This document shows positions 40,905-63,258 of a stretch of 64,000 nt of DNA, piece after piece. Under the pieces are notes generated by a model. That model searched no databases. It was not told the origin of the DNA and saw only the letters and a list, made by a program, of their open reading frames with translations. Origin of the DNA: Chloroflexota bacterium (GTDB taxonomy: Bacteria > Chloroflexota > Anaerolineae > Anaerolineales > Anaerolineaceae); assembly GCA_016887485.1 (NCBI GenBank), contig CP069394.1:1302001-1366000 (forward strand), in the 5' to 3' direction. The translations under genes were made by a program, and so were the position numbers. Positions within the stretch are counted from its first letter, which is position 1, and each line of letters opens with the position of its first letter.

Positions 40905-40924
40905 TCACTTAAAAGGCGAGGCCA

Positions 40925-45621: not shown

Positions 45622-46011
45622 ATGTTCCTGATCAACTTTGGTTACCCTCTTGCGGATCTTCAAAAAGCAAGGATTGAAGAACTGCTCTCCCATAATATCG
45701 GAGGGTATTTCCATATACCGGTTCAATTCGATAACGACATTTCCTTTGAAGAACAGGTTGAGAAATTACTTGCCAATAGTGATTTACCTTATCAGGAGTT
45801 CATGACCCACCCGCTGGCGATTATCCTTCCTTCCCATGCCTACATCGCCGCGCTGATCCTGATAGAAATCCAGGCCAGGATCGGACGCTTTCCAGCCATC
45901 ATCCGTTTCAAACCAAAGCCGGAGAGCTTGCCATTGGAATACGAAGTGGCGGAGGTTGTGGACCTGCAGCATCTACGGGACACCTTAAGGAAAAAGCGAT
46001 CAAATCAGTAG
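45622..46011 (+). CDS. csx15: Csx15-like CRISPR-associated protein
   Basis: 129 aa. 'LINFGYPLADLQKARIEELL', 'LPSHAYIAALILIEIQARIGRFPAIIRF' and 'EVAEVVDLQHLRD' match Csx15 in length and pattern. The family is small and single-domain; it has been proposed to bind or degrade cyclic oligoadenylate, i.e. to dampen the signal. The ATG follows the upstream TAG directly. Last gene of the operon, before a strong terminator. Confidence 0.8.
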   Translation: MFLINFGYPLADLQKARIEELLSHNIGGYFHIPVQFDNDISFEEQVEKLLANSDLPYQEFMTHPLAIILPSHAYIAALILIEIQARIGRFPAIIRFKPKPESLPLEYEVAEVVDLQHLRDTLRKKRSNQ

Positions 46012-46112: not shown

Positions 46113-49100
46113 CTTTTAATCCCTCGCTCAGCACCCTCGCAGGGGGCCGAAGGGGTTTAGTTAAATTTCTACAAATCCAAACTTCGTTCCTGCCAAAGGG
46201 CGTTAAAAGACGTTTCAATCCCTCGCGCAGCACCCTCGCAGGGGGCCGAAGGGGATTAGTTAAATTTCCACGCATTTCCGTTAGGAAGATGCAATGGTTT
46301 GTTAGTGTTTCAATCCCTCGCGCAGCACCCTCAAAGGGGGCCGAAAGGGGATTAGTTAAATTTCCATGTGTTGTTCGATGCTGACACTCAGCGGGCAGGT
46401 GATGGGTTTCAATCCCCCAAGGGGGATTAGGTATCCTCTGAAAATTATACCAAACTTAATTAATTGTTATTGTGCACACAACTCGTCAATCGGCTGTCCA
46501 TACATACCCATCTCATACGATATTAGTGGCCTCCCGCACTTTCAATCCCTTGCGCAGCACCCTCGCAGGGGGCCGAAGGGGATTAGTTAATTTTCCACTG
46601 TGGCATCCTCAGTGCTGGCAATGATTTCACTGATCTCCGTTTCAATCCCCCGAAGGGGTTAAGTATATTTTACACCAACTTCCGAGCCACTATTGGTCAC
46701 TAAACGGTCGGGTTTCAATCCCTCGCGCAGCACCCTCGCAGAGGGGGCCGAAGGGGGTTAGTAAAATCTCCACAAGACGTGGCCTGTTGTCCTGTGTCAG
46801 CTTGCAGCGTTTCAATCCCCCGAAGGGGATTAGTCAAATTTCCCTAATATGTCTTCGGACACCTTGAAGCACCTGATAAATTATTTCAATCCCCCGAAGG
46901 GGTTATTTTATTCTACACCAATTTCCTGGCCATCGTTGGTCAATTAACTGCCAAGGTTCGGTCCCTCGCGCAACACCCTTGCAGGGGGCCGAAGGGGATT
47001 AGTTTTTTTCCACATACCCCACTCCTAATATGAGACTAAGCACCTACTTTGTTTGTTTCATTCCCCTAAGGGGATTAGTTAAATTTTCACACTACCAGAT
47101 AGGGTTACCTCTTTTTTTATGAAATTATTTCATTCTCACGCGCAGTACCCTCGCAGGGGCCGAAGACATTTGGTTTAATTTCCACAGTGGGGCAACCCTT
47201 TGAAAGAATTTATTGATGGAGCATTTCAATCCCCCGAAGGAGTTTAGTTAAATTTCTACTCTGGTTACATGACAGATTGGTATCTTGAAAATTGGTTTCA
47301 ATCCCCCGAAGGGGTTTAGTTAAATTTCTACATCCGGAGGTTGACTTTGAGGAATGGATTGATCGCAATGTTTCAATCCCCCGAAGGGGTTTAGTTAAAT
47401 TTCTACGAGTGCTTCGATGCAAATGGTAACCGCGAGGTTCCTTGTAACGTTTCAATCCCCCGAAGGGGTTTAGTTAAATTTCTACATTCCTACCGAAGTC
47501 CCCACCCCTACAGCTACTGCAGTACCTGTTTCAATCCCCCGAAGGGGATTAGTTAAATTTCTACTGAAAAGGCACATTGTTTCTGGCTATTTTGCCAAGT
47601 GTTTCAATCCCCCGAAGGGGATTAGTTAAATTTCTACAGGAAGAGCAACCAGAGAGAATGTCAAAAGACAAAAGGTTTCAATCCCCCGAAGGGGATTAGT
47701 TAAATTTCTACACAAAATCTCGGCTGGCCATCAAGGCAGTCAGATTAACATTTTGTTTCAATCCCCCGAAGGGGATTAGTTAAATTTCTACTCAAAATAT
47801 GGACAGTGCTTGGTTTGGAAACTACACGTTTCAATCCCCCGAAGGGGATTAGTTAAATTTCTACAATATGGATTATGGCGTTCCCGCAATAGCAAAGAAT
47901 TCGTTTCAATCCCCCGAAGGGGTTTAGTTAAATTTCTACCACAGGTAAGAATTTACCTACAAGATATGCTTAAGCAAGTGTTTCAATCCCCCGAAGGGGT
48001 TTAGTTAAATTTCTACTGTAAAGCTTGTTCTCGCCTCTCGAGGCGTGAATATTGTTTCAATCCCCCGAAGGGGTTTAGTTAAATTTCTACCCACTCTTAC
48101 AGCAGACCCGACCCCTGTCCCAACCGTTTCAATCCCCCGAAGGGGTTTAGTTAAATTTCTACTCTAAGAAAGCAATCTTATTGACCGATACACCACAAGT
48201 TTCAATCCCCCGAAGGGGTTTAGTTAAATTTCTACTTACCGTCCTTGCAATTGTTGTTGGGATCGGTTTTTTAATGTTTCAATCCCCCGAAGGGGTTTAG
48301 TTAAATTTCTACGAATCAAATTCTCTGACTGCCCAGTTTTCAGGGATAAATCGTTTCAATCCCCCGAAAGGGTTTAGTTAAATTTCTACTTAACCGTGTT
48401 CGCAGCAATAATAAGTCTTGAGCCAATGTTTCAATCCCCCGAAGGGGTTTAGTTAAATTTCTACTTTGTACAGAGAAAACGAAGAAGATTATTGGAAAAG
48501 GGTTTCAATCCCCCGAAGGGGTTTAGTTAAATTTCTACCAGATGATTCAGAATGGCGAGATTCCGGAATGTCCAGATCAAGTTTCAATCCCCCGAAGGGG
48601 TTTAGTTAAATTTCTACACTCTATCAAGTGTTTTAGAAAAGAGGATATTATGAGTTTCAATCCCCCGAAGGGGTTTAGTTAAATTTCTACTTTACATATT
48701 ATCTCGCTGTGGGCTTTGCTGTTGTGTTTCAATCCCCCGAAGGGGTTTAGTTAAATTTCTACGCAGCGTTGCCCGGCTTTGGTGCCAAGTGGGATCGTTT
48801 CAATCCCCCGAAGGGGATTAGTTAAATTTCCACTTATGCCCAATAAGAACGGGGTAAATGTTGAGATCACTTTCTATTTCAATCCCCCGAAGGGGATTAG
48901 TTAAATTTCCACTTTTGACCTCACCACTCCCAATCCAAATAAACCCAATTTCAATCCCCCGAAGGGGATTAGTTAAATTTCCACAAGGAAATGGTGTGAT
49001 AGAAGTGGAAAACGAATGTAATATTTCAATCCCCCGAAGGGGATTAGTTAAATTTCCACCCTTTTGTTTGTACGTTAACAAATTGGATTTTTATTCACCT

Positions 49101-49218
49101 TATTTCAATCCCCCGAAGGGGATTAGTTAAATTTCCACTGTATACCGGTTGTTGGTGATCCATTAGCCAGATACAATTCACATTTCAATCCCCCGAAGGG
49201 GATTAGTTAAATTTCCAC
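46113..49218 (-). CRISPR. CRISPR array 3, ~39 repeats, transcribed leftward
   Basis: Plus-strand repeats read GTTTCAATCCCCCGAAGGGG... ATTTCTAC or ATTTCCAC; the crRNA strand is minus. The five leader-proximal repeats (48876-49218) are GTGG-type and end GAAAT rather than GAAAC. The middle repeats (~47222-48833) are GTAG-type, mostly with AAACCCC. The leader-distal 1.1 kb (46113-47185) has at least seven elongated 60-bp repeats, several degenerate half repeats and embedded elements (E4 at 46430-46539, shorter ones at 46660-46710 and 46896-46955). Leader lies at 49219-49490. Confidence 0.97.
46430..46539 (-). repeat. Array-embedded element, copy E4
   Basis: Read on the minus strand it begins GTGCGGGAGGCCAC, shares GTATGAGATGGGTATG and GGACAGCC with E1, and ends AAGTTTGGTATAATTTTCAG (minus-strand TATAAT = 46444-46449). 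It is flanked by an elongated repeat and a half repeat in the same order as E1 and E2. Confidence 0.8.
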
Positions 49219-49490
49219 TGCTCTCACCTTCTAGAATTCTAATATAGTTTTTAGAAAAATTCAAGTTGACATGCATAGGTTGAAACACCTTCATCCTTTT
49301 TCCTCAATAATCTTTAGAATCGAGCGAGACAAAATCGTTAAAAACAGGCGAGTCGCTCGACTCTTTTTAAATTCAACCCCCATATATTGGGGTTGTGCGA
49401 CCCCTTTATGGCCATATATGGGTACACTAGCGCCATTGAGTCGAGCGACTCAAAATCTCCCCCTACCCCCCTTCTCGCTCGACTCCAGGG
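49219..49490 (-). promoter_or_regulatory. CRISPR leader 3 (diverged)
   Basis: Minus-strand promoter TTGAAT (plus 49259-49264), 17 bp, TAGAAT (plus 49236-49241), matching the promoters in leaders 1 and 2. The junction AAGGTGAGAGCA is identical to leader 1. CGAGCGA/TCGCTCG heptamers occur at 49321, 49353, 49442 and 49475, and a palindrome CAACCCC...GGGGTTG at 49376-49397. Confidence 0.82.
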
Positions 49491-49519
49491 AATAAAATAG
49501 ATTGCGATCAGGGCCAATA

Positions 49520-52111
49520 TTAGAGAGCAAGCCGTAATTCATTATCTTCGTTTTCCACTTCTGGCTGCTTCAGGCTTTCCTTGATGATTTCTCTCACTTC
49601 AGCCGCTGGACGGCTATATTTACGCCGGGATTCAGCCATCACGAGCTCTTTCACCTCAGGATCCGGAAGACCTGCAGAAGGGATGGTTTGCAGGTTAAAG
49701 GGGGGTACATTCTGTCCATTTAATGTGGTTTTGATGCAGGCAGTCCAATTAGGAAAATTCGCCAGTTCATGCCGGGTGAATTGCGGTGAAAACTGCGGCT
49801 CCAGCCGAACGGCATCATCTTTACCCACCCGGAAGGACAGCATTGTCCCGACATTTCCGAAGACGGCGTCCATAATCTTGGTATCTTTGATCTGGGAAAT
49901 GAACTGATTCGCCAAAACCAATGAGACACCAAATTTTCGGGCCTCCGACAGCAGTAAGCCGAAATTCTCGGTTGCCAGAGATTGAAATTCATCCACATAG
50001 AGGGTGAACGGTCTCCGCTCCTCAATTTTCTGGTTCCCGCGAGCCAGGATCTCACTTTGGAATTTCGCCATGATGATCAGGCCCAGGAATTGGGCCGTCG
50101 CTTCCCCAAGCAGTCCTTTTGCCAGGTTGATCAATAATATCTTCCCGTTATCCATGATCTCACCCAGATCTATGGTCGATTCCTTTTGACCAAAGATCAG
50201 TTGCAGCCTGGGATCAAGGATGAAATCATCAAATTTGGAACCAACATACTCCCCCATTGACACATTATCGGCACGGTTGCGATAGGTGTAATTGATCCGC
50301 GGCAGTACTTCCTCAACCCAATTTGCCAGAAGAGGTTCATCCCATTTCAATGGCAACCATTTCTTCCAATAATCATCGTTCTGGAATATCTGATAAAACT
50401 CGAGCAGAGTGCCTGGATTTTCGGGGTCGGACATTGCCAATAGCAGGTTCATCTGGACATGTTTATAGAAGATCGGCCCAATATAGTTATTGCTCACCTG
50501 ACCAAAGGTATCATGGAGTAAGCGGTGCATGATCGCTTTGATCTCTCGGGCAATGAAAATCCGTTTGGAAAGGTCGTCACAGGCCAGTAAATTGAACCCC
50601 ACCGGGAAGGTCATATCCAAGGGATCGAGCAAAACCACATCGTCCACGCGGTCTTGTGGAATGAGGCCAAGTAGTTCATCGTAAAGATCGCCATGGGGAT
50701 CGATCACAGCGACGCCTTTGTGATTGGCTATATCCCCTAAAATCATAGATTTTAGCAGGGTTGTTTTTCCTGTCCCAGATTGGCCGACGATATAGACATG
50801 CTGCCGGAGGTCTTTTTCGGCCAGGTAAATGGGCCTCTCAACACCAAAGGCGGCATTGGTTCCAATCATTTTCTTTTCAATCCCATCCTGATGCGCCAGG
50901 GCATTGATCTCTCTGGGTGGGGTGGTTAATTTCGTCTGGTGGGTCTTGAAGTCGACCATACTTAAATTTTCGGCATCAGGGAAACGGAAACCGCAAGTTC
51001 CCTGGTAACCGTCAACTAAAAATCTGAATCGTTCGAGTTTTTGCCCAGCAATCGTTTTTCCCCAACTGGATTTCCCGGGCTGAAAGAAATCCTTAGCAAA
51101 ATTACTCTGATCTTCTTCATCCTCTGGGAAAAGCACATCATAACCGCCCATTTGTAACCGGAGGTCAATATGATCCAGCGCAGAACCTGACCCCACAGAT
51201 TGAGAGAGAACACTGCCAACTGCTTCAGCGATTCCTCTGCCTATTGGCTCTGAGCTGGCAAGGAAAATCTGACAATAAAAAGGGGCATCCTGGAGGCGAA
51301 GAAGTTGATCAATCAGTCCCTGACGGATCAATCTGGCCCGGTCCAAATAGATCTGTCGAAGCGGAATTTCTGCTTTGGGTTGAAAACCTTCCCCTTTAGC
51401 GATTTCGGAGATCAGCGCTTTTTCTTCTTCACTATCGAGAACAGTCGGGGTCAGGCAGATATTAAGGATAAATGGATGACCGTTTGAAATTAACAGGCGA
51501 TAAAGTTGTTCAAAATCAGCTTCACGAGGAGAGAATGGATGAGAAAAATAAACCATATCCTCCTGATTAGGTTTGAAGCCTGGCTCTTCGTTTCTGAGAA
51601 AACCGATGGCTTTCTCGGGATGATTACTATTTAGATGGATCGCCGATTCCCTCTTTCTGATTTCACAAAAGTGTGCGCCTTCGAGGAAAGGAGGCGAATA
51701 CAACCTGATAAAATCCTGGTTATTGGATATCCATTGAAAATCATGATAAGGGAAGGAACTGACCAGGATCGCCCTCATTTGATGCTGGACCTGTTCAACC
51801 CGTTTATTTAATTCCCGTTTGGATGTGCCATTCAATATCCCGAACAGGGCAATTTCAACCGCGCTGTGCTGTCCGTTTTCCTGATGCGGGCAATAAACCG
51901 TTCTCAATGAGAAGCTCACTGATAAATCCGGGAGGTAGAGCTGGTTAATCAAATCAGAATATTTTTGAAGTCCAGTATGACTCGCTCGACCCGGATCACT
52001 TGAAAAAGCGGGAATTGAGACCAGTTGAAGCCCGAAAATTGCTTGTATAGCCTTGCTGCCAATGTCCTGGATGTGAATATATGGATCCATAACGTTATCT
52101 ATTTTTCCCAC
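49520..52111 (-). CDS. HerA/TraG-type P-loop ATPase (DUF87-like)
   Basis: 863 aa; GTG at 52111 or ATG at 52090 are both possible starts. The N-terminal ~420 residues are of unknown fold. Walker A 'VGQSGTGKTTLLKSMI' lies near residue 440, 'AVIDPHGDLYDELLGLIP' follows, Walker B 'LYVDEFQSLA' near 700, and a sensor region 'LVLANQFISQIKDTKIMDAVFGNVGTMLSFRVG' near 735. This resembles the type IV secretion coupling ATPases and HerA-type motors, here without an N-terminal membrane anchor. Last gene of the minus-strand five-gene operon; it may move DNA or protein through the assembly built by its neighbours. Confidence 0.82.
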   Translation of the reverse strand: MGKIDNVMDPYIHIQDIGSKAIQAIFGLQLVSIPAFSSDPGRASHTGLQKYSDLINQLYLPDLSVSFSLRTVYCPHQENGQHSAVEIALFGILNGTSKRELNKRVEQVQHQMRAILVSSFPYHDFQWISNNQDFIRLYSPPFLEGAHFCEIRKRESAIHLNSNHPEKAIGFLRNEEPGFKPNQEDMVYFSHPFSPREADFEQLYRLLISNGHPFILNICLTPTVLDSEEEKALISEIAKGEGFQPKAEIPLRQIYLDRARLIRQGLIDQLLRLQDAPFYCQIFLASSEPIGRGIAEAVGSVLSQSVGSGSALDHIDLRLQMGGYDVLFPEDEEDQSNFAKDFFQPGKSSWGKTIAGQKLERFRFLVDGYQGTCGFRFPDAENLSMVDFKTHQTKLTTPPREINALAHQDGIEKKMIGTNAAFGVERPIYLAEKDLRQHVYIVGQSGTGKTTLLKSMILGDIANHKGVAVIDPHGDLYDELLGLIPQDRVDDVVLLDPLDMTFPVGFNLLACDDLSKRIFIAREIKAIMHRLLHDTFGQVSNNYIGPIFYKHVQMNLLLAMSDPENPGTLLEFYQIFQNDDYWKKWLPLKWDEPLLANWVEEVLPRINYTYRNRADNVSMGEYVGSKFDDFILDPRLQLIFGQKESTIDLGEIMDNGKILLINLAKGLLGEATAQFLGLIIMAKFQSEILARGNQKIEERRPFTLYVDEFQSLATENFGLLLSEARKFGVSLVLANQFISQIKDTKIMDAVFGNVGTMLSFRVGKDDAVRLEPQFSPQFTRHELANFPNWTACIKTTLNGQNVPPFNLQTIPSAGLPDPEVKELVMAESRRKYSRPAAEVREIIKESLKQPEVENEDNELRLAL

Positions 52112-52115
52112 CTTT

Positions 52116-55100
52116 CTATGATTCTTTTGTAATCAGCCGGCTGCACGACTGGATTTTGATATCGGCTGTTTGATAATCTTCAGGAAGCTTTCCTACAGAC
52201 CACCCGGTCGCTGTCGCTTCAGCATAGTAATAATGATAACCGGAGTCAGAATCTATGGCAAACGAGCCTGGCATATGATCCACTCCAGCTATACCCATTG
52301 CACAATGGCCGGGAAGTAGGAGCAGCGCAACGTGGAAACCCAGGCGGTTCATGATGGCTGCTGTCAGGATAGCAACATCTTCGCAATCCCCGACCTGGTC
52401 ATAGAGCGTTTCAATTGGAGAGCGAGGCCACTCGGTTAATGGAGTTGTATCTTTGTCTAGGGCATATTTAATTCCCTGCTGAACAAAGGCAAGGATTGCA
52501 TTGGTTTGGTCATACCGTGTCCATTCTGGATGCTGAAGGAATAGATTAAGGAAGCAAGCGGCTAGATAGTTGAGCTCCTGTGAATCCTCCAGGACATATT
52601 GATACCACTCAGGTTGATCAAGCCTTTGCTCCAGGCGAGCCAGATGGTAACGTCTCTCATCAACAGGAAGAACAATGCTAAAATCTTCTTCAGGGTTTCC
52701 AAATTTCCAAGTAAAAGACCTATCGGTCAGGTTTGTCCCTTCAAGCGTTGGAATTGGGACAAATACGTTTTTCAACTGTTCTTTTTGGTCCTCATTCAAT
52801 TTGTCGTACGCCCACTGTAAATTTGAATTGAGTTCCGTGAATGCTTCCAGGGGCATCAAGTCCCGAACAGTTACTGCTGTGGCAATCCGCCGGTCATCCA
52901 CCTGACAGAACTTGATATTCTGCTCTCCAAGGACGGGTTGGACAAATGGCGATGACTTATTTTCGGCCAAGAAATACCTGCGCTTAGTGGAATATTCACT
53001 TCCCCCTATTGCATCAAAGTTTGGTCTCATCATCGGTAAAGCCGATCTGATCAATGGAAGATAAGGGTTGAACTCAACCTCATCTGGGTGGGTGGATTGC
53101 TCTTTTCGTAATTCCAATCCCTGTTCAAGCACCTGGTCGAGATGATAATCTCGCAGAGGGAGATACAAATCCTTGCTCGCAGCCAGAATAGCCTGACTGA
53201 AATTTTCCGCTGACAAATCTTCCCATTGGTCGAACACCTTCTTAGTTACCAGCAGATCCAATACAACCGATTTGATCGGCTGCTGAAAATGTTGGTAAGC
53301 CCATTCAGCGAATATTGGGTCAATGGCTGTGCTCCGAAAAGGATCGTATTCATCCGAGGAGTATAGCGTTTTAAAAATATCATTGCCAAAATCGAGCGCT
53401 AACAGGTTTTGTGTTTCCTTTAATTTACCATCGAAAGTATCAATCTGAGTTTCAAACTCGCCTAGGTCTTCCTTAATCGCGCTATATGCTAGTTTTATGC
53501 TCTCAAGCAAAACAGCTTCAATTCTAGCGGAATGTTCCTCAGCAAGCATCATCAGGATATGCCGCCTGAGACCTTCAAGCTTCAGGTAATTCCTGATAAT
53601 CCATTCAAGGTTAATTACGATGCTCAAAGGCTTTCGGAAAAACCTCGGCAAGAACCGCCAAAATATCGGTAGGGATTTCGCCTTCTTGAGTATAGTTTGG
53701 ATTTTCTCAAAATCCTCTTGAATGACATTGGAATTGTCGATAGCATCCAGTTTGTTAATTTGTTTGGTGATTACCTCTGCAGAAGAGATAGTAGTTTCAT
53801 CCAAACCTTTGAGTATGCGTTTAATCACTGACACACCTTGCGGATAAATCCCTGGATTTCCAACCAGCTCTGATAGGAATTGAACTATTTGACCGAATTT
53901 CCCAGAAGCCATCTGGATCGCCTGGGAATCAAACGTCTGCTGGAGATCAAGCAAGATCTCTTTTTTAAACTTCAGGGAATAGTCTGCAACCTCAATTTGC
54001 CAAGGTGTATTTCTGATATCCTCGAAATCCATCGGACTCAGATACAAGTGATCAATATTCACATTGATATCAGGAAGTTGCCCCTCATGAGAAACATGGA
54101 AGAAATTTTTTCCGGAGGATAATTGTGAATACCATTCTGGTAAATCGCCAAAATAGGCAGTTGCCCGATTTATCAAATTGATCAAATCTGAGTCGGTTCT
54201 ATGTTCTCCTAAGAAACCTTCGCTAATAATTCTGGATGAGAACAAATCAACGCATTTCTCAATCAAATGATCAGGATCATAGCTCAAACACGATGCCCCG
54301 ATACTGGAATAGAACGAGCCGTTCTTTTGGATATAACCCATCGGCCGTCCGAAGGACAATGTCTGAGGAATATCCGCAAGCATTAAACCAAGCAAGCTGT
54401 TGCCAAACACCAATTCCAACTCATCCACATCACGTGCGTCGTTTCCGTTGGGTTTCCGATAATCGAAAAGATAGGATGAAAGCGTTAACGGCGATCTATC
54501 CTTAATCCCCATTGCTTTTAGCATATCCAAAGTGGTTTTATCAGAGACATCCCGATATCCCTTATCGAGAATCAATAAGGATGAGAACAACCCCACCTCA
54601 TCTTTGTCATCCCGATCTTCCTTATCAGGAAAAATGGATATGTTCAGCATTAAATTACCGAGTGTATTATGAGTCTGTTGCATAATATCCTGAAGCAAAA
54701 AGGCAATAGGCATTAATGCAGCAGAGGATAATGCATCAGTCAGATCTGCAACAACATATAAATTGATATTCTTCCCAAGGCGTTTATCTAAATTGATTTC
54801 CATCAAGCTATCATGGGTTCTGATTTCATGAAAATGCACATTTAACGATGCTCGAATTTGATCTGCGCTCTTTACCAGATTTTCAATAAATTTCTGTCTC
54901 TCGCCAGCCGTGGATGCCAGTGGGAAATTAATTTCAGGGAGAGGTTCCCCATTCTCCTGTAAAATCGAGGCCAGGTCTAAGCCCTTTTCTTGGTCGGTTT
55001 CATAAAGAGCCACAAATTTGGTGATCTTCCTTCTAGTCGGATCGGAGTCGAAATATGATTTTGATACACGAGTAAGAATCTTTTGGGCAAACGGCCCAAT

Positions 55101-55142
55101 GCCAATGACAAGTGCAGGTGAAACCTTTGTTTGTTTTTCCAT
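52116..55142 (-). CDS. Giant protein with C-terminal transglutaminase-like domain
   Basis: 1008 aa from the ATG at 55142 (GGGGGG upstream). N-terminal 'ALVIGIGPFAQKILTRVSKSYF...KFVALYETD' parallels the beginning of the tubulin_2 protein encoded upstream, suggesting a diverged tubulin/Rossmann-like fold. The middle is long and helical. The C-terminal ~110 residues are transglutaminase-like: Cys in 'VGDCEDVAILTAAIMNRLG' near residue 916, His in 'LLPGHCAMGIAGVDH' and Asp in 'FAIDSDSGYHYYYAEAT'. The triad is complete, so protease, transamidase or peptidoglycan activity is possible. 66 bp from the next gene. Confidence 0.75.
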   Translation of the reverse strand: MEKQTKVSPALVIGIGPFAQKILTRVSKSYFDSDPTRRKITKFVALYETDQEKGLDLASILQENGEPLPEINFPLASTAGERQKFIENLVKSADQIRASLNVHFHEIRTHDSLMEINLDKRLGKNINLYVVADLTDALSSAALMPIAFLLQDIMQQTHNTLGNLMLNISIFPDKEDRDDKDEVGLFSSLLILDKGYRDVSDKTTLDMLKAMGIKDRSPLTLSSYLFDYRKPNGNDARDVDELELVFGNSLLGLMLADIPQTLSFGRPMGYIQKNGSFYSSIGASCLSYDPDHLIEKCVDLFSSRIISEGFLGEHRTDSDLINLINRATAYFGDLPEWYSQLSSGKNFFHVSHEGQLPDINVNIDHLYLSPMDFEDIRNTPWQIEVADYSLKFKKEILLDLQQTFDSQAIQMASGKFGQIVQFLSELVGNPGIYPQGVSVIKRILKGLDETTISSAEVITKQINKLDAIDNSNVIQEDFEKIQTILKKAKSLPIFWRFLPRFFRKPLSIVINLEWIIRNYLKLEGLRRHILMMLAEEHSARIEAVLLESIKLAYSAIKEDLGEFETQIDTFDGKLKETQNLLALDFGNDIFKTLYSSDEYDPFRSTAIDPIFAEWAYQHFQQPIKSVVLDLLVTKKVFDQWEDLSAENFSQAILAASKDLYLPLRDYHLDQVLEQGLELRKEQSTHPDEVEFNPYLPLIRSALPMMRPNFDAIGGSEYSTKRRYFLAENKSSPFVQPVLGEQNIKFCQVDDRRIATAVTVRDLMPLEAFTELNSNLQWAYDKLNEDQKEQLKNVFVPIPTLEGTNLTDRSFTWKFGNPEEDFSIVLPVDERRYHLARLEQRLDQPEWYQYVLEDSQELNYLAACFLNLFLQHPEWTRYDQTNAILAFVQQGIKYALDKDTTPLTEWPRSPIETLYDQVGDCEDVAILTAAIMNRLGFHVALLLLPGHCAMGIAGVDHMPGSFAIDSDSGYHYYYAEATATGWSVGKLPEDYQTADIKIQSCSRLITKES

Positions 55143-55208
55143 TCTAGAACCCCCCAGTGGGACTGGGTGTGGCACCCAGAACTGTGGATGCCACACCTTT
55201 GAAATTGA

Positions 55209-58103
55209 TTAATAATCTTTTACAACAGCACCCAACATGCGTTGATAATCTCGCAAGTAGGTAATTTCACGTTGAAGTTGGGGGCGCATCTCCTCGTTAT
55301 TGGTGGGCAAATTACTGATCCTGACTTTCAATTCAGTGATCGCCTCTTCGATTTTCTCAATGGCTGAGGTATTCCCCATATCCTGAACGAGGTCTTCAAT
55401 TCTGCGTTCAAGCTCTTTCCTGAAATCAATCTTATGAATCAGGACTTCCTCAGCTTTCGAACGACCCTGTTCAAGCCGGAATTCTGCAGTTGGTTTAATT
55501 TTGTGAGGCCCAGAATAGTCTCGTTTCAGATCAATATAGTAGAAGCTGCCAATTTGGATTATGAAATCAAAGACCAAACCCAGGGCAAACATCTGGCGGC
55601 TTTTCTTATGCTCGTCCGGGAAGATATCTTCATAGACTACGATATTTGGCAGAATGTGCAAAGGATCCATTGTTTCTTGTTGGACCAATTCATACATGAC
55701 CTTATATTCGTCCATATCCTTCAGCAAGAAGGCGGGCACACCGTGCTTTACCCGGACAACATCGATGCTATGCTTGAATCCAGTCGAGACCATATTAAAG
55801 TTTCGGTTCTGCCGAAAACGTTCTGGGATCAATGCATTGTTCTTGTTCTGAATGCCGATAATGCTCTTCCCTTCCTGATCAAAACGGCTGGTATCACGTT
55901 CAAACTGCCAGAAGGGACTGCAATAAGCAAGCAAATCATCCATCATGGATCCCAATCGCTCAGATGCATTATCAGGATACCTCTCATTAATAGCGTCCAA
56001 AAGAGAAGTTCCATTGATTGCATCAGTAAACTCGTCCATGGACATCCTGACCAAGTCTTCTTCAAATCGGCTCTCCATCCATTGGATAATCTCTTCCAAG
56101 GAATTAAGCTGTAACCGATCAATAAAATCCTTCAATATTACACTTTGGATAAGTGATGAAGACTTTTCCTGGTAGAAGTCTAGGAAATATTGTTTATCAC
56201 TAAGGATCTCTCGCTTTAGCTCAAATGTGCCTTCAGCTATTGTCTGAGGTTCAAGAAATTTCTTATGTTTTTCATCGAGGCTCGCCATTGTCTTCTTTAA
56301 AATTTGTTCAATGCTATCCAGCTCAGCAGATTTGACCTGAAGAAATGTCACTAATTGGTTATAAAGCTCTCTGGCTTTGTTTTGCGCGATATAAACAAGC
56401 CTTGTTTCGATATATTGTTCCATCAATGAAAGGCTTGCACGCTTCCGCTCTTCGAAAGCATTGTCCCATTTTTTTCGCAAGAGGAGCTGTTGAGCATTAT
56501 GGAGTAGATTACCGTCCATATCAGATAATCGACTTACGGATTTTTCATAGGTTTGCCGTAAATTAGAGAGCTTTGACTCTGAAACGCCTTGCTCTGTGAT
56601 CCTATTCTGCAAATCGTTTAAAGAAGTGACCAGATCGGATGCATCTGCGCGAATTGGGGACCGGAGAGTTTCAATTAATGCTTTGGCGTTCTTAATCCCG
56701 TGATTCAATAAAGTTGAAGCGATCACCTTCTCAATCTGTCCTTTGAAGCCCAGTACAATATTAGCTTGCTGATCAGAAAGCAGATCCGACTCTTGGTCAA
56801 AGAAGATGCCTGCTTCCTGAAATTGATTTGACAGCAATGTAATGGAATTTCGGAGTGATTCGCTTTTCAAAATGGCCGATTTTTTCAAAAGGTCCATGGA
56901 ACGATGCGCCTGGATCGAGCGCACAAGTGATTCATCATCCAGTCCAATATCAACAATCATGGATGAGGCTGTTGTCTTAATCCAACCACTATCCACATCG
57001 CGAAAAAGTTCGTTCTGAAGAATCTCGTAACCAAACCTGTTCCCACAGAATTTTTTAAGTCTCTCAGCAGGGTAGACAATCGATGCTGAAGCTAATGAGC
57101 TGTAAGCTTGTTTCCGCCCGAAAACATAGTTATCTAAAACGCCCACATTGGTCATGAAGCTGCTGTTTTCACCAGCAATAGCCGTTCCTGTGTCGAGGAA
57201 AATCGCCTGGGCCAGCATTTTATAAATATCCTCAGAGGAATCGAGTCGATTATTCGCCTCATTCAGCATATCAATCACAAAATGGACATCAAATGGGACA
57301 TGGTCCACATCCACGGGAGCAATCCCAGGATATTCAACATACCAATTAGGATGTTCCATGAGATATTGATCTTCCAGAAACCAGGCATATGTGTTTGCTC
57401 GGATTTTTCGACGCTGAAGCGTCGATTCATCCTTAATTTCCTGATCAATCACTGGAGGAAGGATGCTAAACGCCAGAAGTTCAGGATGGTTACCCCTAAG
57501 GAGTCGCCGGCAGAGATAGGCCAGGTCGAAAGACATTGAGCTACCAGTCCCGCCGCAAGTTGAGAAGATGAAGATCACCCTTGTATTGCTATCTGAGACA
57601 TTGAAGGTAATGGATTCATTGCTCTTTTCGTGAGTTTTCATAATGTTTTCGATATGGTGAATACTCTCAATCGCATATTGCAGCTTTGATAAGAATGAAG
57701 AGCCACCAACCGATTCAGTGAACTTCCGAAAAAGGCTGAGCCTGCCAATGAGACGCATCTGTTTAGCTGCGCCATTTGAAACAATGCCAGCGTGAATCTC
57801 AGTATTATGTGGCCACCATTTTTTAAGGGTGGGGAAGTTCTCAATATTTCGGATAACTGTATTGACATCATGTCCTACCAGTTCCGCCCTCTCATCAGCT
57901 GAGAACCAATTTTCTGCGCCTTTGGGAATATTGACATCGGTGTCCACCCAAAGGAATCTGACTATCGGAATATCTCCATACTGATTTTGGATCGCCTGCT
58001 TGACTCGAAATCCAATCTTCCCTGCAGTTGAGCCTTCCATAACAATTAAGGTTGGCGGTATATTGAGTTCAGTTTTTTGTGGACTATCAATTTGTTTAGC
58101 CAT
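55209..58103 (-). CDS. Tubulin_2 family tubulin/FtsZ-like protein
   Basis: 964 aa from ATG 58103. N-terminal strand 'TLIVMEGSTAGKIGFRVKQAI' and 'VRFLWVDTDVNIP', then the tubulin signature 'FSTCGGTGSSMSFDLAYL' near residues 180-198 (GGTGS motif for GTP phosphate). The C-terminal ~550 residues are mostly coiled helices ('IEEAITELKVRISNLPTNNEEMRPQLQREITYLRDY' at the end). It fits the large tubulin-like proteins annotated Tubulin_2. GTP binding or polymerisation is inferred. The ribosome site GAGGGG supports this start. In operon with VWA and ATPase genes. Confidence 0.82.
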   Translation of the reverse strand: MAKQIDSPQKTELNIPPTLIVMEGSTAGKIGFRVKQAIQNQYGDIPIVRFLWVDTDVNIPKGAENWFSADERAELVGHDVNTVIRNIENFPTLKKWWPHNTEIHAGIVSNGAAKQMRLIGRLSLFRKFTESVGGSSFLSKLQYAIESIHHIENIMKTHEKSNESITFNVSDSNTRVIFIFSTCGGTGSSMSFDLAYLCRRLLRGNHPELLAFSILPPVIDQEIKDESTLQRRKIRANTYAWFLEDQYLMEHPNWYVEYPGIAPVDVDHVPFDVHFVIDMLNEANNRLDSSEDIYKMLAQAIFLDTGTAIAGENSSFMTNVGVLDNYVFGRKQAYSSLASASIVYPAERLKKFCGNRFGYEILQNELFRDVDSGWIKTTASSMIVDIGLDDESLVRSIQAHRSMDLLKKSAILKSESLRNSITLLSNQFQEAGIFFDQESDLLSDQQANIVLGFKGQIEKVIASTLLNHGIKNAKALIETLRSPIRADASDLVTSLNDLQNRITEQGVSESKLSNLRQTYEKSVSRLSDMDGNLLHNAQQLLLRKKWDNAFEERKRASLSLMEQYIETRLVYIAQNKARELYNQLVTFLQVKSAELDSIEQILKKTMASLDEKHKKFLEPQTIAEGTFELKREILSDKQYFLDFYQEKSSSLIQSVILKDFIDRLQLNSLEEIIQWMESRFEEDLVRMSMDEFTDAINGTSLLDAINERYPDNASERLGSMMDDLLAYCSPFWQFERDTSRFDQEGKSIIGIQNKNNALIPERFRQNRNFNMVSTGFKHSIDVVRVKHGVPAFLLKDMDEYKVMYELVQQETMDPLHILPNIVVYEDIFPDEHKKSRQMFALGLVFDFIIQIGSFYYIDLKRDYSGPHKIKPTAEFRLEQGRSKAEEVLIHKIDFRKELERRIEDLVQDMGNTSAIEKIEEAITELKVRISNLPTNNEEMRPQLQREITYLRDYQRMLGAVVKDY

Positions 58104-58134
58104 TGCTAATTTACCCCTCTTATCCTTTTCTTGT

Positions 58135-60834
58135 TTAATAACCACTGTCACTTAGATATTGGAAATTATTATTTTCTACAGAGAATTTGATCTCATTTTC
58201 TAATTTCAATTCATTCACAACGTAATTGTATTTTTGCTTCACCTCTTCCACAGGAATTAGCACAATCTCAGACCTTCCAGAAATGACCTGCGATACTAGC
58301 TTAAAATAAACCGATTGACTTGTCCCTCTCTCTAAAAAGACGTCACAACTCGGATCACTACCAATGAGCAGTTGCCGTTTACTCATAGCGGTAAGATCAA
58401 ATGTACTTACAGCAGATCGATTCTTATCAGTCCAAATGCGTAATGTCCCAGTCACGAAAGATCTTTTTTGTCGCTGCTTTAGCGCTCCAATAACTTTGAT
58501 TGTAATCACTATTGTTCCAAGGATGATTAGGCCGGTCCAAAGCATGACCTTTTTACATCTGGAGAATAGTGAGGGCAATTCAATTCGAACTGGAATGGAT
58601 TGTGTGTCTTCCTCCATTCCTACTGAATCTTTTTCTGTTTCAAGTAGTAAATCGAATTCCTGCATTCCAGAAGTGAAAAGCTTAGTGTTGGTCACATCAA
58701 TTTGATATTCTCCTTGCCCAGGTTCCACAATAATTTCGTCGGAAACCAGTTTTATGGAGCTGTCCCCTAAAAGTGCTAAATAAAGCACTTCCGATTGTCT
58801 ACTTGAAGACGAAATTGTTAATTCCAGATTCGACTTCCAATTCAGGCAACCGATTGGCTCTTCACAGCCGATGGGCTGCACATTAAGGACTGTGATGGTC
58901 GGCTCAAAGACTGTCATCCTGATCGGGATGGAAGCGTTGGTAAAGTTCACTTTTGCCAGTGTCGAAAACACGATTTGTAGATCGTATGCCCCTAGCCCTA
59001 AGGACGAATCTGATTTGAGCCAAAGGTCTCGATATATAGTCTCATTCGATGTTAGCGTGATTTGACTGGGTCCCTCCAAATACACACCTGAAGGCCCTTC
59101 CATTGTCGGTGTTAGCGAAAGCACTTCACTGGCCGTCGAAGTAATTTTCACTTGAACTGGAACGCCTTCTACTAGTTCCTGGTTTTCAACCAGGATATTT
59201 GATTGCCCAGCCATAAGGTTTATAGCAATACTCGGAATGATTTGAACCTCAAACTCCAGTGTGCTAGTGTGAAGATAAGGCAATGTCTGACAATAACCGT
59301 TATCCACATAGGTGTCCAAAGTGTAGTGCCCAGTTTTCGAAGGCTCAAAGTGACCTGTATAAAGGTTCTCATTATTGACTAATTCAACTATTGTAATTTT
59401 TCCACTTTCATCAATGATTTTCCCTGTTACTGTCCCCGAATCCAACGCCTCTTCCTGGCTTTCGCCAATTCGAACACTAATGTCTACACTCTCGCCAGAA
59501 TTGATGGCAATCTTTTCGGATTGGGGCGATTCAATCACAATATCAGGCACAGAAATTAGAGTGACCATCTCTTTTGTACTCAACGGAATAAGCCCTTTAT
59601 ATCCCCTGAGCTCAATGGAATAGGTCCCTGGAACCGTGGTATTAGGATATAGTCTAGAGAAAAGACCGTCATCTGCAGTGATATCGCCATGCGTTCCATC
59701 ATCAAAAAGTTGATCTATCGCTTCCTGAGTTCCATCCGGCCACGTGATTACTGCACTAAATTGGCCTTCACCAATAACACGATGTGGTGTTGAATATTGA
59801 TCAAGTTCCAAGATTTGAGCCTCAATCAACATGGGTTGTCCAGTTTCAGCCAGGTTATTGCCAGAAAATAAGTCGGCTTTAAGATTAGAAGAAATAATCA
59901 CCCTTAGCTGTGCCTGCCCTTCACCTGATAGGTCAACCTGCCAATCCCCTGGAAAATTATCGGCAATGGTGATTACTGCATAATCAGGATCTGTCCCTTG
60001 ATAATAAGTCACCTCAGGATCATTAGGTTCAATAATCTGCCCATCGGGGTTTAGTAGTGAAACATTGATTTTCTCATCCTTTGTTACCACAAAACTAATT
60101 TCAGTAAGGTAAGGGGCAAGACCAAGGTCAATGTTTACAATCTTGTTTGAAGGACTAGGAATCTCACCTTCGCCAATAATCGTTCTATCCTTCCACTGGC
60201 CCAAAATGTCTAGATATACATCAATCAGATCTAAATACGATTTGGCTGAATATAATTTTCCATCTGTCTGCGATGAGACTTTTGCCAGAAATTGAACGGA
60301 CGCATGATTGGTCAATGCTACTGAGATCACTGGGATATTCAACGATCCAATTAGATCAATCGTATCCTGTTCGTAGGAGGTGTAAAAATTTACAGGTTCA
60401 GGTTGTCCATCCGTTAAAAAAATGATGATGGATTGATCAGAATTCTTTGAACCTGATTGAACTAACTCAGAAACAGCTAAAAATGCGGCTTTTACGTCTG
60501 TATAGCCGTCAGGTGTCACAGCATGAATGGATTCAGTTAAGGTCAACTTTGTCTGCATAGAAGTTATTGTTACAATCCCCTCATGTAAAACCTTGGCTTC
60601 GTTCGAGAAAATAACCGTTCCGACCGTATCACCTTGATCCAATAAAGAAATGAATAATTTTGTGGCAGCAAAGCGCAAATCTTCCGGATCGTTATTTGCC
60701 ATACTTCCAGAATTATCTATAACGAAAATTACATTAACATTCTCAGAGCTAGGCTCATAAATAGAGCCTGCAGATAAAGCACAGAGACAGATTAATGAAA
60801 TTATGAGTAATGTGAAATTAAATTTGTGTTTCAT
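58135..60834 (-). CDS. Secreted VWA-domain membrane protein with FHA-like tail
   Basis: 899 aa from ATG 60834 (AAAGGA upstream). Signal peptide 'FTLLIISLICLCALSAGS', then a VWA domain with MIDAS 'VIDNSGSMANND' near residue 40 and 'IIFLTDGQPEP'. Several Ig-like beta domains follow (~250-740), one transmembrane helix 'VMLWTGLIILGTIVITIKVIGAL' near 765-787, and a cytoplasmic tail with 'QLLIGSDPSCDVFLERGT', resembling an FHA phosphothreonine-binding domain. It could link an external surface to the cytoplasmic tubulin-like partner. Distances in the operon: 31 bp to the tubulin_2 gene. Confidence 0.82.
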   Translation of the reverse strand: MKHKFNFTLLIISLICLCALSAGSIYEPSSENVNVIFVIDNSGSMANNDPEDLRFAATKLFISLLDQGDTVGTVIFSNEAKVLHEGIVTITSMQTKLTLTESIHAVTPDGYTDVKAAFLAVSELVQSGSKNSDQSIIIFLTDGQPEPVNFYTSYEQDTIDLIGSLNIPVISVALTNHASVQFLAKVSSQTDGKLYSAKSYLDLIDVYLDILGQWKDRTIIGEGEIPSPSNKIVNIDLGLAPYLTEISFVVTKDEKINVSLLNPDGQIIEPNDPEVTYYQGTDPDYAVITIADNFPGDWQVDLSGEGQAQLRVIISSNLKADLFSGNNLAETGQPMLIEAQILELDQYSTPHRVIGEGQFSAVITWPDGTQEAIDQLFDDGTHGDITADDGLFSRLYPNTTVPGTYSIELRGYKGLIPLSTKEMVTLISVPDIVIESPQSEKIAINSGESVDISVRIGESQEEALDSGTVTGKIIDESGKITIVELVNNENLYTGHFEPSKTGHYTLDTYVDNGYCQTLPYLHTSTLEFEVQIIPSIAINLMAGQSNILVENQELVEGVPVQVKITSTASEVLSLTPTMEGPSGVYLEGPSQITLTSNETIYRDLWLKSDSSLGLGAYDLQIVFSTLAKVNFTNASIPIRMTVFEPTITVLNVQPIGCEEPIGCLNWKSNLELTISSSSRQSEVLYLALLGDSSIKLVSDEIIVEPGQGEYQIDVTNTKLFTSGMQEFDLLLETEKDSVGMEEDTQSIPVRIELPSLFSRCKKVMLWTGLIILGTIVITIKVIGALKQRQKRSFVTGTLRIWTDKNRSAVSTFDLTAMSKRQLLIGSDPSCDVFLERGTSQSVYFKLVSQVISGRSEIVLIPVEEVKQKYNYVVNELKLENEIKFSVENNNFQYLSDSGY

Positions 60835-60930
60835 TATTTCCTTTACTATCCCCCATTGTGACATAATTAATTTTGATGTAACTTGAGTTTTCCTTAAGAA
60901 TTCCATAGTGATCCATCCCTCATAAATTTA

Positions 60931-61728
60931 CTAATTGACAATTCTGGGCTTTGAATACACATGAAACGCTATTGTTTCTTTTGAGGTTCCATTCCTTGGT
61001 TTATAACCACAACCGTTTGATTCCACAAAATGAGATGATATAACCCCTTGTTTTTCGATATTAAAATTTATCCAGTCATCTCCATTCAATAGATCGGTAA
61101 CTCCCAAATTAGTATATAAATTGCTGATTAGGGTAAATGATGAGTTTGTTGATATCAATAATTCATCTGCAAGATTGCTTCGAGGCATACTGTGAATAAA
61201 TGCCAATCTTGCATATCGATTTTCCGTAGAAGTTAAATAATCGTCTGAATCTATTCCGTTAATGACCAAACACCTAGGACCAAAATCAAATCCCTGAGAA
61301 TTTGCTTCTTTCAATATAGTCTCTGTTATGACAAGTTTACCTTCCATTAAATATGCGATTGCCCACCCTAATGTTATGTCCGATTCAGACTTCAATAAGT
61401 ATCCTGAAATTCGATCATTGCTTAAATGAATTAAATTATCCTCCTCAACAGTGGATGCTAGTAATAGTGTTTTGATTCGAGGCAATACATTAATTAAATA
61501 GTTTAAGATTTCATTGAGGTTGTCCTTGTAGTCATCTACATCGATCAATAAGAAATCTATTTTTGATGTGATGGAATTAGCCTTTAATTCATCAAAGGAC
61601 ATTAATTCGCCAACTATCCGGGTACGCCAATCAAACAGGATTATATGGGAAATCCAATTTCGAGAATATGTATCTTTTGCTAGAATTGCAACTGTTGATA
61701 TTTTTTGTTTTTCTTTAGAAATATTCAA
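60931..61728 (-). CDS. Response-regulator-like protein (degenerate receiver and LuxR-type HTH)
   Basis: 265 aa, TTG start. 'KIDFLLIDVDDYKDNLNEIL' resembles the receiver strand with Asp; 'ISGYLLKSESDITLGWAIAYLMEGKLVITETIL' resembles the receiver end and linker of NarL-type regulators ('GYLLK'). 'YARLAFIHSMPRSNLADELLISTNSSFTLISNLYTNLGV' aligns in pattern with a LuxR HTH. First gene of the minus-strand operon, so it may control it. Similarity is weak; a divergent regulator is the best reading. Confidence 0.55.
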   Translation of the reverse strand: MNISKEKQKISTVAILAKDTYSRNWISHIILFDWRTRIVGELMSFDELKANSITSKIDFLLIDVDDYKDNLNEILNYLINVLPRIKTLLLASTVEEDNLIHLSNDRISGYLLKSESDITLGWAIAYLMEGKLVITETILKEANSQGFDFGPRCLVINGIDSDDYLTSTENRYARLAFIHSMPRSNLADELLISTNSSFTLISNLYTNLGVTDLLNGDDWINFNIEKQGVISSHFVESNGCGYKPRNGTSKETIAFHVYSKPRIVN

Positions 61729-62103
61729 AACCTTACCCCCTAAACTAGAAAAACTATATATATAAGAGTCTATCTAGGTTAATAAACCTAAACCATAGAT
61801 AATATATCGATTAAGTGTTTTAAGTTTTCATCATAAATTAATAAATCAGTAATAATCTATCCAATAGAAATAGAAAATACTGAAGAATTCATTTTATAAG
61901 TTTCACAGGAAATTCAATAGAAAATTACAATTTGATAATATACAAATTAAACTTTCCGAAATCGGAAATGCCAGGATGGTTTTTCTTAGATTTAAAAAAT
62001 GGTTATATTACCTCTTCTTCTATACGGAAAGTGAACACCTGATCTGACCCCCAAAAACTGATCCAGATAATGTGATAGTATTTGGTGAAATTGGAGTTTA
62101 GAA
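61729..62103. other. A+T-rich intergenic region and left end of IS element
   Basis: No gene. Contains the promoter side of the minus-strand operon (TATATATA at 61756-61763). From ~62038 the sequence TGAACACCTGATCTGACCCC begins the IS element; its CTGACCC core is echoed in inverse orientation at the right end near 63256. Confidence 0.45.
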
Positions 62104-62379
62104 ATGACACGAAGACGAGTTTATATTCCGGAACAAATCATCACCATACTACGAGAGGCTGAGATCCTCATCTTCAAGGCAAGACAGTGAAAGAAGCCAG
62201 AAAGCTACTGGAGATCAGCGAGTAGACCTATTATCGCTGGCGGAGAGAATATGAGGGCATGGATATAACACAGGCCAAAAAAATGGAGAGAATGAAGAAG
62301 AAAATACCAGGTTAAAAAACTGGTGACTGATCTCTCTTTGGAAAATGCCATCTATAAGGAGGTGCTGGGAAAAAAGTAA
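62104..62379 (+). pseudogene. IS3-family transposase orfA, broken
   Basis: ATG at 62104 starts 'MTRRRVYIPEQIITILREAE', the usual HTH start of OrfA, but the frame is lost near 62170 and internal stops appear ('EISE*TYYRWRREYEGM' in a second frame). The tail 'KKKIP...RLK' corresponds to the coiled region. Non-functional. Confidence 0.75.
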
Positions 62380-62417
62380 TTGCGCCTGACTGCAAGGGTC
62401 AAGCTGTCAGGTAGGCC

Positions 62418-63237
62418 GTGGAAGCCTTGGATATCTCCGAACACAGAGCCTGCCAGACGATAGGCCAGCCACGGTCAACCCAGCGTTACGACAAGCCTGT
62501 CCCTGAGGATGAAGCACTGCTCAGACAAAGGAAAATTGAGCTGGCCAGTCAGTATGGGCGCTATGGGTATCGGGTGATCACAGCATTACTAGGGAATGAG
62601 GGTTGGATCATCAACCACAAGCGGGGCAGCGCATTTAGCGGGAGGAAGTGCGAAAAATACCCCAAAAATAGCCAATACGTGGCAGATTATGACTCAATGA
62701 TGGTTCATTAGTAAGATTGAGGCCGTTGTTCTCCAAACATGTGTGGAGTTATGACTCCATGGAAGATTGCACCCAAATGGGGTCAAGTTCCGCATTCTGA
62801 ATGTAATCGATGAATATCCGCGGAAATGTCTCGCTGTGAAGGTGGCCAGGAGGTTGACCTTCCACAATGTCGTTGAGGTGCTCACTGACCTATTCATTAA
62901 GCGTGGCGCTCCCGTCCATATCCGTTCTGATAAAGGCCCTGAATTCATTGCCATGCGGGTCTGGGATTGTTCAGCAAGGCTCCATGTTCGTCCTTAATCA
63001 ATTGAGCCTGGTAACCCCTGGGGGAATGGTTATTTTGAATCGGTCAACGGCAAAATGCATGATGAGTTATTGAATAGAAAAATTTTCTACACACTAAAGG
63101 AGGCTCAAATATTGATCGAGGTGTGGCAGAAACATTACAACACGGTCCGTCCTCATAGTTCTCTAGGCTATCATCCCTCTGTACTTGCAACTAACTTGGT
63201 TCAACCTACTCAATTTCAGCCGATTGGACTATCATGA
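62418..63237 (+). pseudogene. IS3-family transposase orfB (DDE integrase), broken
   Basis: Recognisable pieces in different frames: 'EHRACQTIGQPRSTQRY' and 'YGRYGYRVITALL' (62418-62610), 'LNDGSLVRLRP' and 'HVWSYDSMED' with an in-frame TGA for the usual Trp, 'FRILNVIDEYPRKCLAVKVARRL' and 'HIRSDKGPEF' (62788-62950), then 'NGKMHDELLNRKIFYTLKEAQ' and 'HYNTVRPHSSLGY' to the stop. At least two frameshifts and a stop codon make it inactive. Confidence 0.8.
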
Positions 63238-63258
63238 AGGGACGATACAACATATAGG

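Follow-up and report, generated by a model that had tools for sequence, protein, structure and literature searches.

What do two tubulin-like proteins do beside a type III CRISPR locus? The question is raised by a five-gene operon of a Chloroflexota bacterium (Anaerolineaceae; contig CP069394.1), which occupies positions 49520-61728 on the minus strand of the 64,000-nt stretch analysed here (the window) and ends about 300 bp from a CRISPR array. We detected two tubulin-fold paralogues (TubA and TubB), a VWA protein with membrane segments, a type III CRISPR setting, and two forms of the gene string with different attached genes. We tentatively read the operon as a CRISPR-linked FtsZl1-VWA membrane device, in which the tubulin pair would be a switch or scaffold recruited to type III CRISPR and equipped with exchangeable output parts, and give this reading a probability of about 0.42. 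The FtsZl1-VWA association is already known; for the CRISPR-linked tubulin pair with its two forms the literature searched gave no description.

Gene content of the operon

A first-pass annotation had proposed a string of genes for a response regulator-like protein, a VWA protein with an FHA-like tail, a Tubulin_2 protein, a "transglutaminase giant" and a HerA-TraG ATPase, with gaps of 5-97 bp. The five-gene string is real, since all five open reading frames (ORFs) are uninterrupted at their coordinates and lie on one strand; the spacings, with the starts as called, are instead 24, -17 (an overlap), 12 and 4 bp. The features are as follows.

60931-61728, minus strand: P0001, 265 aa, tentative degenerate NarL/LuxR-like response regulator (NarL match below cut-off; homologue in locus L077)
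58135-60906, minus strand: P0002, 923 aa, VWA protein with two hydrophobic segments (PF00092/PF13519; segment scan)
60229-60735, minus strand: VWA domain of P0002, residues 58-226, predicted to lie outside the membrane (Pfam)
55209-58151, minus strand: P0003, 980 aa, TubA, Tubulin_2/FtsZl1 GTPase (PF13809; model match to tubulins)
57540-57557, minus strand: T4 GTP-binding loop of TubA, CGGTGS, residues 199-204 (motif and alignment)
52116-55196, minus strand: P0004, 1026 aa, TubB, second tubulin with a fused transglutaminase-like domain (Pfam, hhalign, predicted fold)
52767-55127, minus strand: part of TubB predicted to have the tubulin fold (residues ~24-810), interrupted by a long insertion of helices (match to CetZ, 3zid; hhalign)
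52167-52520, minus strand: transglutaminase/peptidase-like domain of TubB, residues ~893-1010, C-H-E (DUF553; alignment)
49520-52111, minus strand: P0005, 863 aa, HerA/TraG/TrwB-type P-loop ATPase (Pfam; orthologues)

The VWA domain of P0002 is clear (PF13519, 4.9e-13; PF00092, 7e-13) and carries the DxSxS pattern, and the hydrophobic segments, at residues 31-49 and 791-809, bound the part predicted to be outer; two such segments were found in 12 of the 15 VWA proteins scanned. The FHA-like tail was not recovered by Pfam at E<=1. For P0001 the Pfam search gave no match and the NarL model matched far under its cut-off (E 0.029, 13.5 bits vs 250 bits), so that the proposed response regulator is kept here as a tentative degenerate NarL/LuxR-type regulator; its homologue occupies the same place in L077 (9.2e-39). 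Upstream of the operon (62100-63240) an apparent decayed insertion-sequence transposase was read by eye from the sequence.

The order VWA-TubA-TubB is identical in all 13 distinct loci in which the three genes were recognised (the window, L074, L075, L076, L077, L078, L079, L080, L081, L027, L100, L102 and L103; TubB of L074 is cut by a contig end and the VWA gene of L081 is a fragment), which is more than chance.

Two tubulin-like proteins, TubA and TubB

The proposed Tubulin_2 protein, P0003, belongs to that family (PF13809, 3.1e-39; 135.7 bits, cut-off 27) and, as in the FtsZl1 family, a VWA gene is present in its operon. TubA keeps the T4 loop (CGGTGSS, similar to GGGTG(S/T)G), with G200, G201, G203 and S204 invariant across 13 aligned rows. 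Its structural model matches tubulins over residues 31-343 only, i.e., the first domain (Z 12.6), and the C-terminal part of the model is of low confidence.

In genomes G029 and G040 a weak second Tubulin_2 match (24.3 and 21 bits) was seen beside the first one, and two relatives of TubB gave such matches as well (21.1 and 26.5 bits); all of these are under the cut-off of 27. A profile-profile comparison of TubA with TubB was therefore made. The hhalign probability was 98.2 over 587 aligned columns (E 5.4e-14 for this single comparison). The AlphaFold2 model of P0004, built from 9 sequences with a mean predicted local distance difference test (pLDDT) score of 66, matches CetZ (3zid; Z 21.6, 290 residues aligned, root-mean-square deviation 3.8), BtubB (2btq; Z 20.6) and many further tubulins, and CetZ is also its best Foldseek match (E 1.5e-4). 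By predicted fold and profile comparison TubB is thus a tubulin and a paralogue of TubA. The range aligned to tubulins runs from residue 25 to about 804-814, and therefore both tubulin domains appear to be present in TubB, with a long helical insertion between them. The T4 GTP-loop signature was not found in TubB by alignment or hhalign, the equivalent stretch reading differently.

CRISPR linkage across genomes

The first-pass annotation had pointed to the CRISPR neighbour and asked for a neighbourhood survey of Tubulin_2 homologues. Scanning the genome collection turned up 9 loci, and a search of the order (400 genomes drawn evenly; TubA at E<=1e-10) detected TubA in 12 genomes. All 12, the window included, have cas genes, an array or a CRISPR-type reverse transcriptase (RT) on the same contig, so the CRISPR neighbour is meaningful. 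RNase H-RT-Cas1-Cas2 genes are present in G029, G150, G410, G613 and G754, and in G687 RNase H-RT runs up to the contig end with Cas10 upstream. G488 has Cas6 and a CARF-like match below cut-off, G534 has Cas6 and an array, G569 has Cmr genes and G681 has Cas10. In G683, which was no seed of the RT search described below, Cas10, Card1-like genes, Cas6, Cmr genes, RT-Cas1-Cas2 and VWA-TubA lie on one contig. In 9 of 12 relatives (G166 and the 11 order-search genomes that remain when the window is set aside) the contig with TubA also encodes Cas10, no more than about 25 kb away. Contigs of equal length with genes at the same positions are taken as identical between the genome (G) and locus (L) handles.

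Coincidental proximity to CRISPR was considered and rejected, since 0 of 12 control loci of P0005-like ATPases match cas profiles, vs 12/12 in the order search; these profiles were built from the studied loci themselves and would miss other CRISPR types, and the control stretches span 5-20 kb, one of them (L070) having a short periodic repeat at its end. A phylum-wide search of 400 genomes, in which the matches are more distant, likewise yielded 12 with TubA. Four of these are linked (the window, G150, G410 and G166); G166 has RT-Cas1-Cas2 together with an array.

On a TubA tree of 25 rows, which leaves out the partial L142, 13 of the 14 rows in a group of support 100/99 are CRISPR-linked. Linkage requires 4 changes on this tree vs 8.1 with shuffled labels, and was therefore gained or lost more than once; the linked rows L104 and L150 fall outside the group, on long branches, and their genes at the place of TubB (708 and 710 aa) were not recognised by TubB profiles. 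CRISPR linkage is strong within this Tubulin_2 subfamily, and more distant relatives are mostly unlinked.

Two neighbourhoods are recorded here as side observations. In L102 (13999-17328) a TPR-CHAT (caspase-like) protein is encoded between the tubulin operon and Cas10. On an Azospirillum plasmid (L155, 11944-23051) a Tubulin_2-type gene is flanked by caspase-family and OmpA genes, a hint of a conflict role for the Tubulin_2 family.

Form A: tubulins in one string with adaptation genes

The commonest form seen, form A, has the order sigma factor - helix-turn-helix (HTH) - VWA - TubA - TubB - RNase H - RT - Cas1 - Cas2. We detected it in seven loci, complete in L075, L076, L078, L080 and L027 and cut by contig ends in L081 (which stops after RT and has the VWA fragment) and L082 (which starts inside TubA). 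The TubB gene shares 1, 4 and 4 nt with the RNase H gene in the three loci for which the overlap was determined. The attached genes keep their characteristic residues: the RNase H D-E-D-D in 12/12 complete aligned rows, the RT FADD box in 7/7, and the conserved Glu, His and acidic residues of Cas1 in 6/6.

The RT is group II intron-like, with the GsI-IIC RT as best solved relative (8.7e-52), and carries an insert of about 150 residues that separates the halves of the catalytic domain (profile 193 to 347 vs chain 185 to 188) in L075, L076, L078, L080-L082 and L027. A membrane role for this insert was rejected, a hydrophobic stretch passing the threshold in only 7 of 12 RTs, wider relatives included. 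In the converse search of the 400 order genomes, TubA lies on the same contig in 7 of 9 full-length RT matches (E<=1e-130), among them the non-seed genome G683. There were 9 weaker RT genomes, two of which (G612 and G030) were looked at in detail; G612 (L142, partial) contains TubA, a TubB-like protein, RNase H and RT.

Form B: the transglutaminase-like domain and the ATPase

Form B, VWA - TubA - TubB with a fused transglutaminase-like domain, occurs in the window and in G534, G569 and G681, which all belong to one family; in the window it comes with the HerA/TraG ATPase and stands beside a type III-B locus. G534 and G569 carry Cas1 on a different contig, and a search of G681 (assembly 76% complete) did not detect it.

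The transglutaminase proposed earlier is present as a domain of P0004 (DUF553, 6.5e-5, over cut-off; Transglut_core, 3e-4, just under cut-off), with the motifs GDCED, PGHCA and YYYAEAT. The triad is Cys-His-Glu and not the Cys-His-Asp that had been read; of the 7 aligned rows, 6 (that of the window among them) have Glu as the third residue and one has Asp. The label "transglutaminase giant" has to be dropped, as the 1026-aa protein is mainly a tubulin paralogue and the domain is confined to its last ~200 residues, where the model is unreliable (pLDDT <50 from residue 810). A stand-alone giant enzyme was likewise rejected because TubB of the other aligned loci lacks the domain; elsewhere it occurs in smaller open frames of 122-455 aa. 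The domain probably acts as a peptidase.

The HerA-TraG assignment of P0005 holds (TrwB_AAD_bind, 5.1e-10; DUF87, 1e-8; both over cut-off). Its match to SXT TraD (6.5e-17) is far below the cut-off of that model, and its best PADLOC match is mad8 (3e-16). Neither P0005 nor its L102 orthologue, which adjoins the operon there, has a hydrophobic segment at a mean Kyte-Doolittle hydropathy >=1.6 over 19 residues. A close orthologue (37-39% identity, nearly full length) was found in 3 of the 12 tubulin-bearing genomes searched, and the other 9 have no P0005 match at E<=1e-10. These three are exactly the carriers of the TubB-transglutaminase fusion besides the window's own genome; the orthologue is adjacent in G681, ~21 kb off in G569 and on another contig in G534.

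The first-pass annotation had named independent occurrence of the components as a result that would speak against a joint system, and such independence was found in part. VWA-tubulin strings without CRISPR exist (L079, L144 and L146), and P0005-like ATPases are widespread (at E<=1e-20 they occur in 59 of 301 genomes, the window's own among them); yet the close P0005 orthologue occurs only with the fusion genomes.

At L146 (2919-15947, another family of the phylum) a string without CRISPR consists of VWA, TubA, a 1103-aa protein and two further genes and ends in a HerA-type ATPase, which therefore may be an old partner of the VWA-tubulin device. The "arrays" called at L146 overlap repetitive coding sequence (an alanine-zipper protein) and were left out of the count.

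CRISPR setting of the window

The CRISPR genes and arrays of the window precede the operon on the map.

28590-34082, plus strand: Cas6 and more CRISPR arrays, whose repeat is that of the array adjoining the operon (Cas6 match, array calls, orientation)
35596-42076, plus strand: type III-B (Cmr) genes, RAMP, Cas10, Cmr3, RAMP, Cmr5, RAMP (Pfam)
42166-46011, plus strand: CARF protein, 551-aa multi-segment hydrophobic protein, CARF-nuclease (Card1-like) and Csx15 (profile matches)
46113-49225, minus strand: CRISPR array adjoining the operon, inferred direction the same as that of the operon (repeat direction)
49226-49519, no strand: spacer that separates the array from the operon; it contains GAGTCGAGCGACTC-type palindromes and may be a CRISPR leader (inverted repeats)

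Reading the direction of an array from its repeats follows a rule of thumb. Because of this direction and the decayed far end of the array, the 49226-49519 spacer possibly is the leader. Several GAGTCGAGCGACTC-type palindromes, resembling operator or leader sites, lie at 49308-49494 between the 3' end of the operon and the array. At the operon-distal array end (46113-47170) about seven odd repeats, with a hairpin enlarged by ~24 nt, are found among normal and decayed repeats. The 551-aa protein (42990-44645), encoded between two CARF genes, has seven hydrophobic segments and no match in Pfam (E<=0.01) or PADLOC (E<=0.001); it is possibly a new membrane effector of type III CRISPR.

Promoter-like sites were not enriched in the scan (28 found vs 33.1 expected), and the excess of terminator-like sites (33 vs 15.5 expected) is largely due to CRISPR repeats. 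There was no phage match, and no relatives were found in viral contigs. The plasmid search gave two distant matches (24-25% identity), with no CRISPR gene among their listed features.

Selection on the module

TubA is the most constrained among the genes compared and is under strong purifying selection. The ratios of nonsynonymous to synonymous substitution rates (dN/dS) for L080 vs L081 are 0.026 for TubA, 0.063 for RT, 0.099 for RNase H and 0.117 for TubB. For L078 vs L080, where dS is 1.7-2.4, they are 0.052 for TubA, 0.063 for Cas1, 0.065 for RNase H, 0.073 for RT, 0.140 for VWA and 0.156 for TubB; two other pairs are mostly saturated. The constrained TubA and the faster VWA and TubB fit an engine with faster-changing contact parts.

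Relation to known systems

The FtsZl1-VWA association was described, and membrane remodelling proposed, by Makarova and Koonin (2010; PMC2875224), where in the sections consulted the FtsZl1 family has no tested function. The present operon resembles those systems in the Tubulin_2 domain, the long helical C-terminal part, the neighbouring VWA gene and the membrane-associated partners. It differs in the partners, given there as kinases, a P-loop GTPase and OmpA proteins, with CRISPR, RT and a second tubulin unnamed in the same sections. A C-terminal tubulin domain was undetected in FtsZl1 according to these sections, whereas the TubB model matches tubulins from residue 25 to ~804.

In the accessible text of Altae-Tran et al. 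(2023; PMC10910872), a single sentence mentions that vWA and tubulin proteins occur near CRISPR, and another notes a link between adaptation modules and RNaseH. That text gives neither gene order, tubulin pair, RT link nor mechanism; its supplementary entries may include this system. The vWA-tubulin conflict systems of Kaur et al. (2020; PMC7159879) are built around GTPases, the tubulin neighbourhoods in the excerpts seen being from firmicutes and actinobacteria and around a GTPase gene. Unlike in these GTPase-centric systems, no P-loop GTPase family passes the Pfam cut-off among the five operon proteins.

The RT-CRISPR clade 9 of Toro et al. (2017; PMC5541045), as far as the retrieved part of that article goes, is from Chloroflexi and has an RT separate from Cas1. 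The present genes are similar in being from Chloroflexi with an RT that adjoins Cas1 unfused, a likeness by description which does not imply clade membership of the present RTs. That retrieved part contains none of the terms 'tubulin', 'vWA' and 'RNase H', and term counts in the portions retrieved of Silas et al. (2017) and Toro et al. (2018) gave 0 occurrences of tubulin and vWA.

The HerA-type ATPase core is common to P0005 and the HerA-type defence ATPases of the PADLOC models. The usual partners of such ATPases include SIR2 and NurA; neither these nor other usual HerA partners were matched among the five operon genes by Pfam or PADLOC. A description of this operon was not found in the literature searched, supplementary tables being outside its scope.

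Proposed mechanism and competing explanations

We infer the mechanism of the TubA/TubB device, including polymerisation, GTP hydrolysis and location, from sequence. Once infection is sensed, the cytoplasmic tail of the VWA protein would become the site, on the inside of the membrane, at which TubA and TubB assemble together, with GTP on the TubA side as the driving force. Working as a switch or a scaffold, the assembly would direct an exchangeable output part to the RNA or DNA of the invader. In form A, RT-Cas1-Cas2 would write memory from the invader nucleic acid brought by the assembly; in form B, that of the window, the transglutaminase-like domain and the ATPase would make a local response next to Cmr interference. 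The suggestion of an anti-phage device is thus retained as to a role against invaders, which is the best reading, and modified in that the operon is one variant of a CRISPR-linked module.

A more specific version, which we consider doubtful, makes the tubulin cytoskeleton a working part of type III CRISPR: a TubA/TubB polymer, nucleated at the membrane by VWA as a receptor, would capture infecting nucleic acid for RT-Cas1-Cas2, most likely RNA because RNase H and RT are present, and would have been re-tooled with a protease-like domain and a DNA-translocase-like motor in the lineage of the window. To our knowledge, a role in CRISPR memory or interference is not known for any cytoskeletal protein.

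Several points count against the CRISPR-linked membrane device. Linkage is not function, and part of the agreement is built into the queries. The seeds of the order query (A1) were the window, G410, G150 and G029, which leaves eight of the twelve genomes as new finds, and six of the seven linked genomes returned by the RT query (A3) were its seeds, therefore the independent cases are few. Two non-seed RT genomes have no tubulin on their short contigs: the 5.9 kb contig of G400 starts at RNase H, and the 6.9 kb contig of G716 reads Cas6-RNase H-RT-Cas1-Cas2, with Cas6 at the place of TubB. In G030 (L143, 1463-6962) sigma-HTH-RNase H and RT-Cas1-Cas2 are present with no recognised tubulin, two ORFs without assigned family occupying the place of the tubulin genes. 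Outside the clade, 3 of 12 Tubulin_2 loci are linked (L104, L142 and L150) and 9 have no cas match (the set being L007, L009, L104, L142, L144, L146 and L148-L153). Inside the clade, no cas gene was found among the ORFs scanned in the 21 kb of L079, one small ORF being left unscanned. None of the five operon proteins has a profile match to CARF or another signal-binding domain (Pfam E<=1, PADLOC E<=0.1). Cas1 and the RT family RVT_1 were undetected in the window genome (2.9 Mb assembly, 95% complete), and form B is therefore not simply an adaptation helper.

The strongest rival, which we regard as quite possible, is that the VWA-tubulin system is an autonomous anti-phage or cell-death device located in a putative defence island or captured repeatedly by CRISPR loci. 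The strings without CRISPR at L079, L144 (a kinase, two FHA proteins, VWA, TubA and a second tubulin-like protein) and L146 are consistent with it, as are the 9/12 unlinked loci outside the clade, the at least 4 changes of linkage on the tree, and the replacement of TubB by Cas6 in G716. The TPR-CHAT protein between the device and Cas10 in L102, the caspase-family genes beside the Azospirillum Tubulin_2 gene, and the vWA with two tubulins in the part of Kaur et al. (2020; PMC7159879) available to us also argue for a conflict device that works on its own. However, the 12/12 linkage in the order and the TubB/RNase H overlap upstream of RT-Cas1-Cas2 seem tighter than mere clustering would give.

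The device may instead be an effector arm of type III CRISPR, in which Cmr/Cas10 activation makes the tubulins assemble; this would remodel the membrane or prevent cell division, a target would be cleaved by the transglutaminase-like domain, and the infected cell would come to a halt. The Cas10 genes on the TubA contigs of 9/12 relatives and the window, the CARF proteins in some of these loci and the membrane segments of the VWA protein agree with such an arm, but the five proteins themselves have no CARF match and the genes directly downstream in form A are adaptation genes and not Cas10; we consider it unlikely. The conjugation-like or translocating apparatus suggested in the first-pass annotation, with P0005 as a coupling protein pumping DNA through a VWA-tubulin membrane complex, is very improbable. 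The TrwB_AAD_bind match, the SXT TraD match of 6.5e-17 far below cut-off and the HerA-type ATPase gene downstream of VWA-TubA in L146 are what it can draw on. It is disfavoured by the lack of a hydrophobic segment, at the threshold used, in P0005 and the L102 orthologue (relaxase and mating-pair genes were not searched for) and by the 9/12 tubulin genomes without a P0005 match at E<=1e-10.

Taken together, reading the operon as a CRISPR-linked FtsZl1-VWA membrane device gives the FtsZl1 family a testable biological setting and suggests a spatial, membrane-bound step in CRISPR immunity, and the pairs of a loop-bearing and a loop-less tubulin become available for comparison with alpha/beta tubulin.

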